Below are positions 19,315 to 25,440 of a stretch of DNA of 64,000 nt, in pieces. A program made the translations under genes and the position numbers. The stretch is taken from assembly GCF_901000735.1 (NCBI RefSeq), contig NC_081541.1, positions 46,791,485 through 46,855,484 of the forward strand. The letters run 5' to 3'. Source of the stretch: Corylus avellana (lineage: Eukaryota; Streptophyta; Magnoliopsida; Fagales; Betulaceae). The notes beneath the pieces are model-generated. The model did no database searches, was not told the origin of the DNA, and saw only the letters and a program-made list of their open reading frames with translations. Every line of letters starts with the position of its first letter. Position 1 is the first letter of the stretch.

Positions 19315-22300
19315 TCATAGTAAGCTATCTGTTCGAGCCGACAATCTCTTGAAGAAATTGCTTGGTACTGAAGGTAGCTTGCTCCGGAACCTAGGGTGCC
19401 GCAAGTAATACAAGCCTGCAAGCAGAGCCACCACTCTGAATGGTGTCACATAAAGCATCACAGCTGCACAAAGAGAGAACAATACGAAAAGGCTAGTTGC
19501 TCTTGGGTCTCTCCAGCTGAGCAGAGACTGAAGTCTCTCCCCCTGCGTTGCAATGTCACCTACCACTGTTTGAATCCTCCCTGCAACACTTCTGAGCCTG
19601 TCATACCTCATTCGAACTATGTCATGCGGTCTTGAAGTTGGAAATGTGTCAAATTCCTCATCAAGCTCATCCGGATGCACCGCCTCCGCCCACGAGAGTT
19701 TAGTATCCATATGCGGCGGGTACCGCGGCCGGTACCTATAGTTCCATAACCCGATGAGGAACATATAGAGGAAGAGGGTTGGAAGTATCAGCTCTGGATA
19801 CCAAATCAATATCAGAAATAACATATGAACCAGAACTGATGTGATGGGGTTCTTCCAGTCACAAACATCGCCAAACCATCGGCTCATTGAAAACATGCCG
19901 GAAAGAAGCGACATGACACGAAAGAAGTTGGCTTTGCTTCTTCTCATACTCCACATGTGGGAGTCTACATCTAACATGTACTCCACCACTTCTTTTCTCA
20001 GAGGCGGTTCAGCTCTACCAAGCCTCACTGCCACAATATTCATGGCTTGGTATCTTAAATTGTCTACTTGGTTCACTGTGAAGGGATGCAAGTAATGCAT
20101 TTTTGGAAGCAAGGGATGGCCATAAATGTATACCATGTTAGCTAGAGAGAGGGTAGTGAAGCGAACGGCTAGTTGGAGCTCTCCCATTTTCTTTACTCCA
20201 TGTGGTTGAAGAACAAGAAGTGGGTAAGAATGTGTATATACTCGATAAGCTTCGAGTGTTGATAGCCGAATACGTACCTGTTAGAATATAAACTAAATAG
20301 TTAAATTCATTCATTCCTATTAGTTTAAGCTTTTTGAAATAAGTGGTGATTTAACCGTACCTTTCCGATCCGGGAATCTCTTGCTGCAGTGCCACCAGCA
20401 GTTGGTTTCTCACCTCCACCCAAGTGGCAGTTGTCAAAAACTCCCAATGTTATCACTGTGCAGGGGTCGTAAACTTCCCATGTGTACTGCTCATTCCATT
20501 TGGGATTGAAGGTGTCAAGGATTGTTCTTGTTCGAACCCATTTCTGGCCATACTTAGCTACGCAGTAAGAATCTGTAGTCCCTCTTCCATCTTTCATCTT
20601 CATTGGAAGAAGCCCTTGTGCACTCAAAATGCCCACTTCCAACATCCCAACTGGCTGTTTCCAGAGCTGCTTTGCCGTTGGCCTTTGATCACTTATGTAC
20701 ATAGTTGATTCATCTAATACATGGTATCCACCTTCAAGACAAACTCTTAGGTGAATTCTACTTGAAAACTTGAGCTCCTTCCGCCTGTCAGCTTCCAAGA
20801 CTCCAAAACCATATTTCTCAAGATTGAACCACCGAGTATGAACTGGCCGGTGGTCAAGCCGCCGCTCGAACATGTCAAGTGGTAGGCTTATCTTCCCTAA
20901 CACCTCGTCTTTCGCTTGATGCAGACGATCCTCAACTGTAACAAACAGCTGCTCCTCGAAAGGCTCAGCTGCCACGAAGACTAAATCTTCATTCCAAAAT
21001 GGGTTAGTGGTGCGAGTTTGACATACCTGTTAGAATATGAATTAAATGATTAAGCTTTTTGGATAAATTGTGATTTAAGATAGTATTAGAGCAGAGGTTT
21101 TAAGTTTGAACCTGTCTCTCCAGCTTCAAACTTTTGAAATAAGTAGTGATTTAAGAATACCTTGGTTTTCAGCACTTGGTTTCCAATCTGAGCTTTGACA
21201 AAAACTTCTGGGAGGCGGTTTCTGTCATTGGGCAGCACATCCTGAGCTTCAATGACATTTACTCTGAGGTACCACAGTTTGGGAGATACATAAACCTTTG
21301 ATCGGATGTTAAAAACACCCTCTCCATAAACAGCAGCAGCATCAGAATGCCATGACTCTGGGAAGGCTTCATCAGCTTGTGTTCCCATCCAAACTGCAAG
21401 CATAATCTCCCCCCTTACCTTCCCTTGCCCGCGCCGGTCCTCCAATCTGTGCCACTGAGGAGCCAGTGTGCTATCTGGTGGAACTCTGGTTGGAATCTCA
21501 TTCAAGTCAAAAACCACCCTTCCAAGATAATCATCCCTTCCCACCATTTCTTTATCCTTCACAAAAACTTCTAGTACTGATGACTGAATGCGTTCTTTTG
21601 AGAATGCAAACACCTGATGCCACTCTGGATTCATTTTCCTTTCAAGATGCTTTGTTCTTCCTTTATAGTTCCCCAGCTTGACTTCCACATAAGGATCACA
21701 GCTACCAGTAATGGTGCTCGGAGGAAGATCTCTTGCTTTCACAACTCGAACATATAGATAAAACGTTTGCTCAACAAGGTCATATCTGTCACTGCTCATC
21801 CACCCTCTTCCGCCGTAGCCTGCACCATTTGGCCACCTCTCACCAAGTTGTGGGTTGGTGTCCTTCAATTCGTAGTCCTCTTGGAGGCTAGGATGAGCTT
21901 GTGGATTGGCTTGGTGCATGGTGAATTGGACAACTGATATAATATAAATTAGATGATTAAATTCATCTCTATAAGCTTAAGCTTTTGGAATGAGTGGTGA
22001 TCACCACTCATTCCAAGATTTAACATGCTATTAGAGCAAAGGTCCTCAGTTTGAACCCTGTCTCTATTATTTATTCTCATATCAGTTAAATATTTTACGT
22101 GTTAAGTCTCATGTATTAAGAAGGAATTTGAACCTATACGTGTGAAAATAAAAATTAAATGATCAAATTCATTCATTCTTATAAGCTTAAGCATTGGGGA
22201 TAAGCGGTGATTTAACAATACCTTGTGGTTGTTTCTCTACAGGTATGTCGGGCTGCTGCAAAGATTGGTGCTTGTATATGTGCTGGGCTCTTCCTGCTCT

Positions 22301-22903
22301 TTCTTCTGCAGGTTCCCTGATTTCCTGTGTCTCTTTAACAGGATCAGCACCAGTAGGCTCGACTGCTGCAATAGTGGAACTAGAATTGCTTATGACACCA
22401 ACTTTTGGAGTTTCAACAACAGGAACTTTTGATTTGGGAACAGCTGCTAATGTTTTGCCAAGGAGATTTGTATTTTCTGAAATGGGAGGAGAATTAAGAG
22501 GAGGTGGAGGGCTAAAACTAGATTCTGATGAAAGATAGATTTTTAGGCCAATCTCTCCTTTTACAGGTGAGAAGAACCACTTCCTTTCCAACTGGAATCT
22601 TTGATAAGCTTCTTCACCTTTCTTGACAATATTTGAGCAAGGAAATCTTACTCGACCAAGGAAGTTTCTGCCTGGAATTGGTTTTCTCTCATTGTAAACA
22701 GAAATTTCTATGGCTTGGTGGGTTTTGGTTTGGTCGAAATCAAGGATAAGTTTGTGGTTCCAAATGGGGTTGAGGTTCTTTGGGATAGTTTTGGTTCTGC
22801 TTAACTGGTTTTCAAAATCAACTTCTACAAAAGAACTAGCTGACCCTTCACCATCCTTTGGCATAAGATCATGAGCATCCACTACTTCCACCACTAGCTT
22901 CAT
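19315..22903 (-). CDS. MCTP/FTIP family protein: four C2 domains plus C-terminal membrane region
   Basis: Exons 22903-22222, 21933-21161, 21026-20361, 20277-19315 give 1027 aa in frame. C2 domains lie near residues 1-125 (MKLVVEVVDAHDLMPKDGEG), 285-400 (FYLYVRVVKARDLPP), 447-570 (LWYLRVNVIEAQDVLP) and 620-735 (GMLEVGILSAQGLLPMK). A Pro/Ser/Thr-rich linker separates C2-1 from C2-2. The plant PRT_C region follows, with hydrophobic segments near 856-895 and 970-1005 and the conserved end RHPRFRSKLPSVPSNFFKRL. Family members tether the ER to the plasma membrane at plasmodesmata and traffic FT or receptor kinases. I cannot name the orthologue. To my knowledge most such genes have no coding introns. 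Here all three introns consist wholly of one LTR-like repeat and its target duplication (see the mobile elements). If the introns were not spliced, each would break the protein. Confidence 0.95.
20279..20356 (+). mobile_element. solo LTR (TRIM-type) forming MCTP intron 3
   Basis: A 78-bp element starts TGTTAGAATATAAAC and ends GGTGATTTAACC, flanked by perfect 5-bp duplications GTACC at 20274-20278 and 20357-20361. The intron (20360-20278 on the minus strand) is exactly element plus 5 bp. On the gene strand the donor GTAC lies in the first duplication; the acceptor is the terminal A of the element plus G of the second. Removing it restores AAG GTA CGT ATT. The antisense LTR start reads TTTATATTCTAACA, a U-rich tract with a CTAAC branch-like motif. 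Confidence 0.88.
21028..21156 (+). mobile_element. deleted TRIM-type element forming MCTP intron 2
   Basis: A 129-bp element, TGTTAGAATATGAATT to GTGATTTAAGA, flanked by perfect duplications ATACC at 21023-21027 and 21157-21161. It contains a shortened first terminal repeat, then TAGTATTAGAGC (resembling the complement of the initiator-tRNA-Met end used as primer site), then part of a second terminal repeat. The intron 21160-21027 equals element plus 5 bp; splicing restores ACC AAG GTA TGT CAA. Confidence 0.86.
21935..22217 (+). mobile_element. two-LTR TRIM-type element forming MCTP intron 1
   Basis: A 283-bp element with a first terminal repeat at 21935-22025 (carrying a small internal inverted duplication GTGATCACCAC), a primer-site-like TGCTATTAGAGC at 22026, an internal piece with GTTTGAACCC, and a second repeat at 22141-22217 ending in TTTAACA. 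Flanks are ACAAC (21930-21934) and ATACC (22218-22222), only 3 of 5 identical, so this copy looks older. The intron 22221-21934 is again element plus 5 bp. Confidence 0.82.
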
Positions 22904-24388: not shown

Positions 24389-24465
24389 TGTTAAAATATT
24401 AATTAAATGATTAAATCAATCGTTTTTTACAAATTTAAGCTTTTAAAATAAATGGCGATTCAACA
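24389..24465 (+). mobile_element. solo LTR of the family that forms the MCTP introns
   Basis: 77 bp, TGTTAAAATATTAATTAAAT to GGCGATTCAACA, aligned along its length with the terminal repeats in MCTP introns 1 and 3. It lies about 1.5 kb upstream of the MCTP start. Flanking 5-mers ACTAA and CGGCG do not match. Confidence 0.75.
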
Positions 24466-25227
24466 CGGCGTCAAAATAAAAATATTGGTAATTTAACTAT
24501 GGAACCACATCTTAGGGTTTTTCCTAACTATGAACAATTTCCAATATTATTCAACAGTACCATTACTGGTTACATGGCTAATTTCAGACAGTGACAACCT
24601 CAAAAGAACCTAAAGAGATGGTTTCCTTACATTACATAGCTGAACTCTAACTTTATGTTTCGCAGGCTTATCACTATCATCCGTGCTAACACTTGAAATT
24701 TGAACTTCATTCTTTGTAAGATTTTGAGGTGGTCCATAAGAATGTTTTTCATAAATCTGACATGTAATTTTTTATAACTCATGTTACGCCACTTTACGCT
24801 CTTGAGATAATAATCTTTAATGTTAATCTCAAGAAAAATCCTAAGGAAATTCAGAAGTTTGGAATTCATGGTGAACAAACATCACCGTTCGAAGGTTGTA
24901 TATGTTTAACAGATGCAACTCTTGAATAAACACCCTAATGGAAAAATTATAACAATTTTCATTAAGATCCTTCAAAAGAAACCCATTATGCAATGCTGAT
25001 ATTTTTCTTGCTAATAATGAACTCAAGTTTGGAATTTCAAAACATGATGCTGAGTTGATCGATCATGGTTAATATTGCTTCCATATGCATGCTGGGCTGA
25101 GAATTCATAGCCAGGCTCCATGCTGGTGAAATGGGTGTTAGCCTTAAGCTTTGGAGCTTGAGCTTGAGCTTGGGGCCCAAAATTGTGTAGTGATAGTGGC
25201 CTACTACTGTATTATATTTTTTATCAG

Positions 25228-25440
25228 GTTAAACTTTTGGTATAACTTGTCATTTAACATAGTATTAGAGTGTCTCCAAGAGGTACCTCCTTCCCCCTCT
25301 TGTGGACATGTCAAAAACATAGTATTAGAGTGAAGATCTTGACTTCGAATCTTGTGTCCGTCATTCACCTCTCATTTTAATATATTCCACGTGTTAGACT
25401 TCAATAATTGAGGGACAGTTTCACATGAGTGTCAGGTAGT
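25228..25440 (+). mobile_element. truncated TRIM-family copy
   Basis: The end of a terminal repeat (CATTTAACA) is followed by TAGTATTAGAG, which appears twice (25260 and 25320) because of a local 60-bp duplication. An internal part with CTTCGAATC and a degenerate right side follow. Confidence 0.6.

Follow-up and report, generated by a model that had tools for sequence, protein, structure and literature searches.

How does a gene of a largely intronless family come to carry three introns, each consisting of almost nothing but a repeat? This question is raised by a stretch of 64,000 nucleotides of hazel (Corylus avellana) DNA, here called the window, in which a gene at positions 19315-22903 of the minus strand encodes a plant MCTP, or FT-interacting protein. 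The ratio of intronless MCTP genes is 0.64-1.00 across seed plants, Vitis excepted, in the available part of one survey (PMC7325108), and 15 of 18 maize members are intronless in that of another (PMC9347167). The answer developed here, which we regard as very probable, is that the three introns of this gene, together with introns of nine other hazel genes, arose from an element of about 280 bp resembling a terminal-repeat retrotransposon in miniature (TRIM), or from a remnant of it with a single long terminal repeat (LTR), lying in exons antisense to the gene.

The joined reading frame on the minus strand runs through exon 1 (22222..22903), exon 2 (21161..21933), exon 3 (20361..21026) and exon 4 (19315..20277; 321 codons including the stop, supported also by protein matches), and these four exons add up to 3084 nt, giving 1027 codons uninterrupted by any stop. 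The introns between them, all GT..AG on the minus strand, measure 288 bp (21934..22221), 134 bp (21027..21160) and 83 bp (20278..20360), and their coordinates confirm that, as the original prediction had it, each consists of an element (283, 129 and 78 bp, respectively) plus 5 bp. The elements lie on the plus strand, antisense to the gene. That of intron 1 (21935..22217) has two repeats and a spacer, the repeats being identical at 55 of 72 aligned bases (56 of 71 in the profile-search alignment), with the two LTRs differing at about a quarter of sites; that of intron 2 (21028..21156) is a shortened two-repeat form, with a primer-binding-like stretch recognised by eye between the repeats; and that of intron 3 (20279..20356) is a single 78-bp repeat. 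Repeat and profile comparisons found the three elements alike, in agreement with the earlier claim of a single family, always antisense to MCTP. Each element is bordered by the two copies of a target duplication, which on the plus strand read ACAAC (21930..21934) and ATACC (22218..22222) for intron 1 (GTTGT and GGTAT on the gene strand), ATACC at both edges (21023..21027 and 21157..21161; GGTAT) for intron 2, and GTACC at both edges (20274..20278 and 20357..20361; GGTAC) for intron 3. On the gene strand, intron 2, with its duplication GGTAT/GGTAT, appears as AAG^GTATTC...CTAACAG^GTATG, and intron 3, with GGTAC/GGTAC, as AAG^GTACGG...CTAACAG^GTACG. An inverted duplication (GAATGAGTGGTGATCACCACTCATTC), which could form a hairpin, is also present in the intron 1 element, within its left repeat (at about 21985-22020 of the window).

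The scheme proposed for these introns is as follows. A non-autonomous LTR-type retrotransposon of TRIM-like organisation, or a single-LTR remnant of it, would come to lie in an exon, antisense to the gene, and its integration would duplicate 5 bp of the exon. The upstream copy, of the form GGTNN, would provide the donor (G^GTNN); the acceptor CAG would combine the terminal CA of the element with the G that opens the downstream copy, and the T-rich stretch ahead of it would be provided by the antisense LTR. Splicing, which would occur at each of these sites, would then give back the exact exon (GGTNN) or the exon with one extra codon (GNNNG). If TG...CA ends and a 5-bp duplication are assumed, the mRNA gains (i-1)+4-5 bases, i being the start of the donor GT in the upstream copy and the acceptor being CA plus the first G; the frame is maintained only at i=2 (GGTNN, no change) or at i=5 (GNNNG, with use of the element's first T and the addition of one codon), and both classes were found. 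GGTNN occurs at 47 of the 3080 five-base sites of the MCTP coding sequence, and the probability that three random insertions would all fit is about 4e-6.

The empty-site comparison that the original prediction had called for was made with MCTP homologues. Six homologous frames (P0125, P0126, P0130, P0169, P0170 and P0171; 1046-1088 residues) are uninterrupted at all three intron sites, as judged from the residues of these proteins, which lie on contigs of 7.75-23.6 kb. They would represent unspliced open frames, to judge from the absence of a name for these proteins, from contigs longer than such an mRNA and from N-terminal extensions, found ahead of the usual start in P0126, P0169 and P0170. 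In the 121-row MCTP alignment, gap-free rows amount to 0 of 120 at intron 1 and 1 of 120 at intron 2, where the gap columns make the count uninformative, and to 120 of 120 at intron 3. The closest of the proteins listed is an MCTP of Alnus glutinosa, with 92% identity over the full length. The proposal that the gene gained its introns by repeated insertion of an LTR-type element is supported by these read-through homologues and by the intact joined frame. As regards intron 1, taking into account that codon 228 is Gly in 98 of 120 homologues and codon 229 is Val in 48 of 120, the site probably read GGT GT before the insertion; such an ancestral target, GGTGT, deduced from protein residues, would be a single change away from each of the present copies. 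The A. glutinosa MCTP model P0121 lacks eight residues directly before the intron 1 site in the alignment; it may share the intron, with a different donor annotated, or have truly lost these residues.

A genome search for the 78-bp repeat, also suggested originally and run in part, revealed introns made of the same repeat in nine other genes, and the initial scope of one gene proved too narrow. Altogether, 14 family introns were found in 10 genes, those for MCTP, a pectin methylesterase (PME), UGT76, a UGT78-like protein, a DUF716 protein, an S-locus-lectin-type kinase, a P450, an L-type lectin kinase, an MFS-like protein and a GRAS protein; UGT78, S-locus-type kinase, CYP711 and MFS-like are presumptive names assigned by us. 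The PME gene (L035) has three family introns and a duplicate gene in L036. The UGT76 cluster shows the duplication GAAGG and an intron of 568 bp in the tabulated copy, the UGT78-like gene a 442-bp intron with GGTAA/GGTAA, and the DUF716 gene a 629-bp intron with GGTGT/GGTAT, whilst the introns obtained by pattern search measure 88 bp (S-locus-lectin-type kinase), 78 bp (P450), 168 bp (L-type lectin kinase), 113 bp (MFS-like) and 257 bp (GRAS). Over the 14 introns, the two duplication copies match at 5/5 positions in eight, 4/5 in four and 3/5 in two (MCTP-1 and PME-2). The best match to the LTR profile is antisense in 14/14, with E-values from 2.3e-21 (MCTP-3) to 0.0011 (the S-locus-lectin-type kinase, the weakest), and at a blastn E-value of 1e-3 each of 13 introns resembles at least 11 others, that of the S-locus-lectin-type kinase resembling four. 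There are 9-13 T among the last 25 intron bases in 13 of the 14, and 6 in PME-2. Thirteen introns lie at GGTNN-type sites and one (UGT76) at a GNNNG site, the splice sites being drawn from the element plus the target duplication. Pfam domains span the junctions in DUF716, UGT76 (UDPGT), PME (Pectinesterase, junctions 2 and 3), the S-locus-lectin-type kinase (B_lectin), the P450 (p450), the L-type lectin kinase (Lectin_legB) and the GRAS gene (GRAS). Family copies in the opposite orientation were also observed directly downstream of the PME gene (L035, 3996-4177; L036, 3767-3948).

These introns come from a search of 12 contigs with a total of 369,928,215 bases, in which the intron 3 repeat was matched at least 42 times, with 40 of 459 first-look candidates scored; 30 loci of about 3 kb plus 20 stretches of 10 kb were read. 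A pattern consisting of AGGTNN ahead of an antisense LTR end, with at most two mismatches, was matched 434 times, and its reversed counterpart 99 times. Among the 49 places with no more than one mismatch, 30 have GGT at that position, two of these lying within the MCTP gene, a rate that is biased since the pattern itself demands AGGT. Ten of the other 28 places, chosen as non-duplicates, were fetched, and five of them contain complete in-frame introns; the remaining nine of the 14 introns were found without selecting on flank or orientation. A scan for joined frames was made on 92 element intervals, which overlap and include duplicated loci: with at least 115 open residues required on both sides, eight antisense joined frames (three of them UGT76 copies) and no sense ones were obtained, and at 60 residues eight antisense and four sense. 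Of 3000 intervals placed at random in the same loci, 5 passed the 115-residue threshold and 54 that of 60 residues, which was also passed by 30 of 479 intervals displaced to positions near the elements; the 60-residue threshold alone therefore proves little. At seven of the loci read (L042, L048, L039, L041, L045, L049 and L037), no convincing joined frame was found.

The frame rule can be confronted with UGT76, the single GNNNG case, for which one added residue is predicted. The NCBI model of hazel UGT76 (P0241) contains the predicted junction RVE|EGKGCIVKWAPQ, and a UGT76B1-like NCBI protein of Corylus avellana has 100% identity, over 99% of the query, to the protein predicted from contig C1. 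In an alignment of 120 listed proteins the segment has 15 residues in P0241 and 14 in 118 others, one protein being unplaceable; the extra residue is absent from the hazel proteins P0337, P0342, P0346 and P0357, and a simpler text match, which parsed 67 other proteins, gave a shorter spacer in all. Other nearby acceptors in UGT76 also preserve the frame, and the NCBI model uses the one proposed here. By comparison with homologues, the intron positions in both MCTP and UGT76 appear to be newly gained. The UGT76 genes (L031-L034, C1:49.139-49.179 Mb) are clustered and partly inverted and have the element-derived intron in common; in two copies the exon translations are identical.

As to its nature, the element looks like a TRIM of about 280 bp. 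Its repeats, of about 78 bp, are single or paired around a short spacer, with pairs in MCTP-1, UGT76, UGT78, DUF716, L042, L048 and others. Whole copies measure 279 bp (L042) and 280 bp (L048), below the limit of about 1 kb for TRIMs. The family has short direct terminal repeats of the TG...CA type, with many ends that have drifted from TG/CA. The 5-bp target duplication, also typical of TRIMs, is perfect in 8 of the 14 introns and, as ATAAT/ATAAT, at L048, a copy with TG..CA ends around which no convincing joined frame was found. In scans of 50 LTR copies, with duplicated loci counted twice, a match of 9-12 out of 12 bases to TGGTATCAGAGC, which we take to be the plant initiator-tRNA primer site motif, follows 13 copies, three of them perfectly, as against 0.5% of random places. 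Retrotransposition would be the mode of movement most in keeping with these structures. The divergence between paired LTRs (K) is 0.27-0.44 in four introns and 0.18-0.34 in five other copies; therefore, the insertions are not recent, and they may be tens of millions of years old.

Several observations weigh against this interpretation. In MCTP the duplications are perfect at introns 2 and 3, and at intron 1 the copies GGTAT/GTTGT match at 3/5 only. As a small correction to the original description, the terminal motifs vary (intron 1 starts with TGATATAATA, intron 2 ends in TTTAAGA and intron 3 in TTTAACC). PME-2, whose duplication likewise reaches just 3/5, has one LTR plus a piece of spacer, not a whole element. 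Weak sense-strand matches to the profile exist within MCTP-1 (E 0.046 and 0.71) and UGT78 (E 0.3), the UGT78-like peptide has no Pfam match, and the MFS-like one has only a meaningless match (E 0.092). For five of the 14 introns, the place had been chosen for its GGT flank and antisense end, so that neither flank nor orientation is independent evidence there. Among the ten fetched places, L051 has Pfam-supported pectinesterase coding sequence up to the donor and no acceptor within 700 bases, L053 and L060 have an open frame on the left side only, and L052 and L055 are unconvincing. As regards a polypurine tract ahead of the 3' repeat, at least 12 purines out of 14 precede just 1 of the 50 LTR copies scanned, and several copies look purine-rich by eye.

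Amongst other explanations, the one that survives best accepts most of the above and differs as to the cause of the target sequences. The integrase may prefer GGT targets, the fit to splicing being then a by-product of targeting instead of the result of selection. The 13 of 14 introns at GGTNN-type sites would be expected in such a case, though introns were precisely what was sought, and perfect duplications of other sequence at family copies (for instance ATAAT, AAAGG and GAAGG) speak against it. This option, otherwise compatible with insertion of the element into exons, is given a small but real chance, selection being favoured as the main cause of the GGT targets.

Far less probable is that older introns were invaded and later filled by the element. 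TRIM-type elements do often lie within introns of plant genes, according to the available portions of PMC4717578 and PMC3281118. However, in the three MCTP cases nothing of the intron is left over once the element ends and the 5-bp exon copy are taken together, and in most others both edges are explained in this way; the MCTP homologues are uninterrupted at the sites; and UGT76 has exactly one extra residue, as insertion into an exon predicts. On this intron anatomy, these homologues and this residue, invasion was rejected. It is even harder to believe that these genes are present as pseudogene or misassembled copies in which the insertions are unspliced damage: the MCTP frame keeps its 1027 open codons and its 92% identity to Alnus, though the intron 1 LTRs have diverged at about a quarter of their sites, the same in-frame pattern recurs in ten different genes, and the hazel UGT76 protein of NCBI spans the junction, and this possibility was discarded on these three grounds. 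Equally implausible is that the introns multiplied through reverse splicing of their RNA, the process by which fungal Introner-like elements without duplications have been interpreted (PMC9860276, in the text available), and this was rejected on the 5-bp duplications, the paired LTRs, the primer-binding stretch and the copy that carries the unrelated duplication ATAAT outside any convincing joined frame.

With insertion of a TRIM-like element into exons as the preferred explanation, some further features of the window can be described. Upstream of the MCTP gene there are an additional single family repeat (24389..24465, plus strand), for which no matching duplication was seen, and a decayed copy (25208..25396, plus strand), composed of a profile match at 25208-25259 and a spacer-like stretch to 25396. 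In the 64-kb window, at a profile E-value below 0.05, nothing outside the introns other than 24389-24465 and 25208-25259 matches the family. The two upstream copies share the orientation of the copies in the MCTP introns, and the copies of the window are clustered within about 5 kb. Scans of the window for tRNA genes and Rfam families gave no matches.

The origin of new introns is a long-standing question, and an LTR-type family in a sequenced nut tree makes it testable with the hazel genomes and RNA data that already exist. It is likely, with less assurance than for the ten genes themselves, that TRIM-type LTR retrotransposons can be Introners and that this family has installed dozens, perhaps hundreds, of introns in the hazel lineage, an antisense, splice-competent TG...CA element and a 5-bp duplication at GGTNN or GNNNG being what would produce an in-frame intron. 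If so, LTR elements in general would constitute a standing source of plant introns. The hazel findings point to a route for intron gain from retrotransposons in plants, and the two-class frame rule offers a simple signature that can be searched for in any plant genome. In searches of the open-licence PMC literature, none of the titles among the matches listed dealt with LTR-type introns in plants, and to our knowledge no LTR-type Introner has been reported, which does not prove that none exists.

In terms of known systems, the hazel family behaves like an LTR-type Introner family in a land plant. Gozashti et al. (2022; PMC9860276) retained a family if it comprised four or more introns resembling one another, and the accessible text of that work reports Introners from no land plant and attributes most families to DNA transposition; in its main text the term LTR does not occur. 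The hazel introns conform to that definition, with four or more mutually similar ones spread over unrelated genes. Like those Introners, as far as they are described in the same text, they form one family of similar introns across many unrelated genes, with splice sites split between the element and the target duplication and with some insertions that add codons; whereas the families of that text are DNA-transposon-like or devoid of signature, that of hazel possesses LTRs together with a primer-binding stretch, and its host is a flowering plant. A second resemblance is to TRIM and SMART elements, which, in the available portions of PMC3281118 and PMC4717578, are tiny two-LTR elements with 5-bp duplications, often in or near genes. 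Their size is similar to that of the hazel family, as illustrated by FRetro129 (292 bp, 85-bp repeats), which in 2012 was described as the smallest of the LTR retrotransposons (PMC3281118). These portions describe elements inside introns, exons and untranslated regions, some of them altering gene structures, but neither introns made up entirely of an element nor elements whose ends act as splice sites, as is proposed for those in hazel. Finally, insertion at AGGT has been described as a route to precise introns in the part of PMC3443670 available, which gives 35 events as the joint total for Oryza, Drosophila, Oikopleura and Zea. As in those cases, a duplication in hazel would supply both donor and acceptor and the coding sequence would be precisely restored; what distinguishes hazel from the events reported there is that one LTR family, with duplications of 5 bp and frames of two classes, accounts for 14 introns in the few dozen places that were read in a single plant genome.

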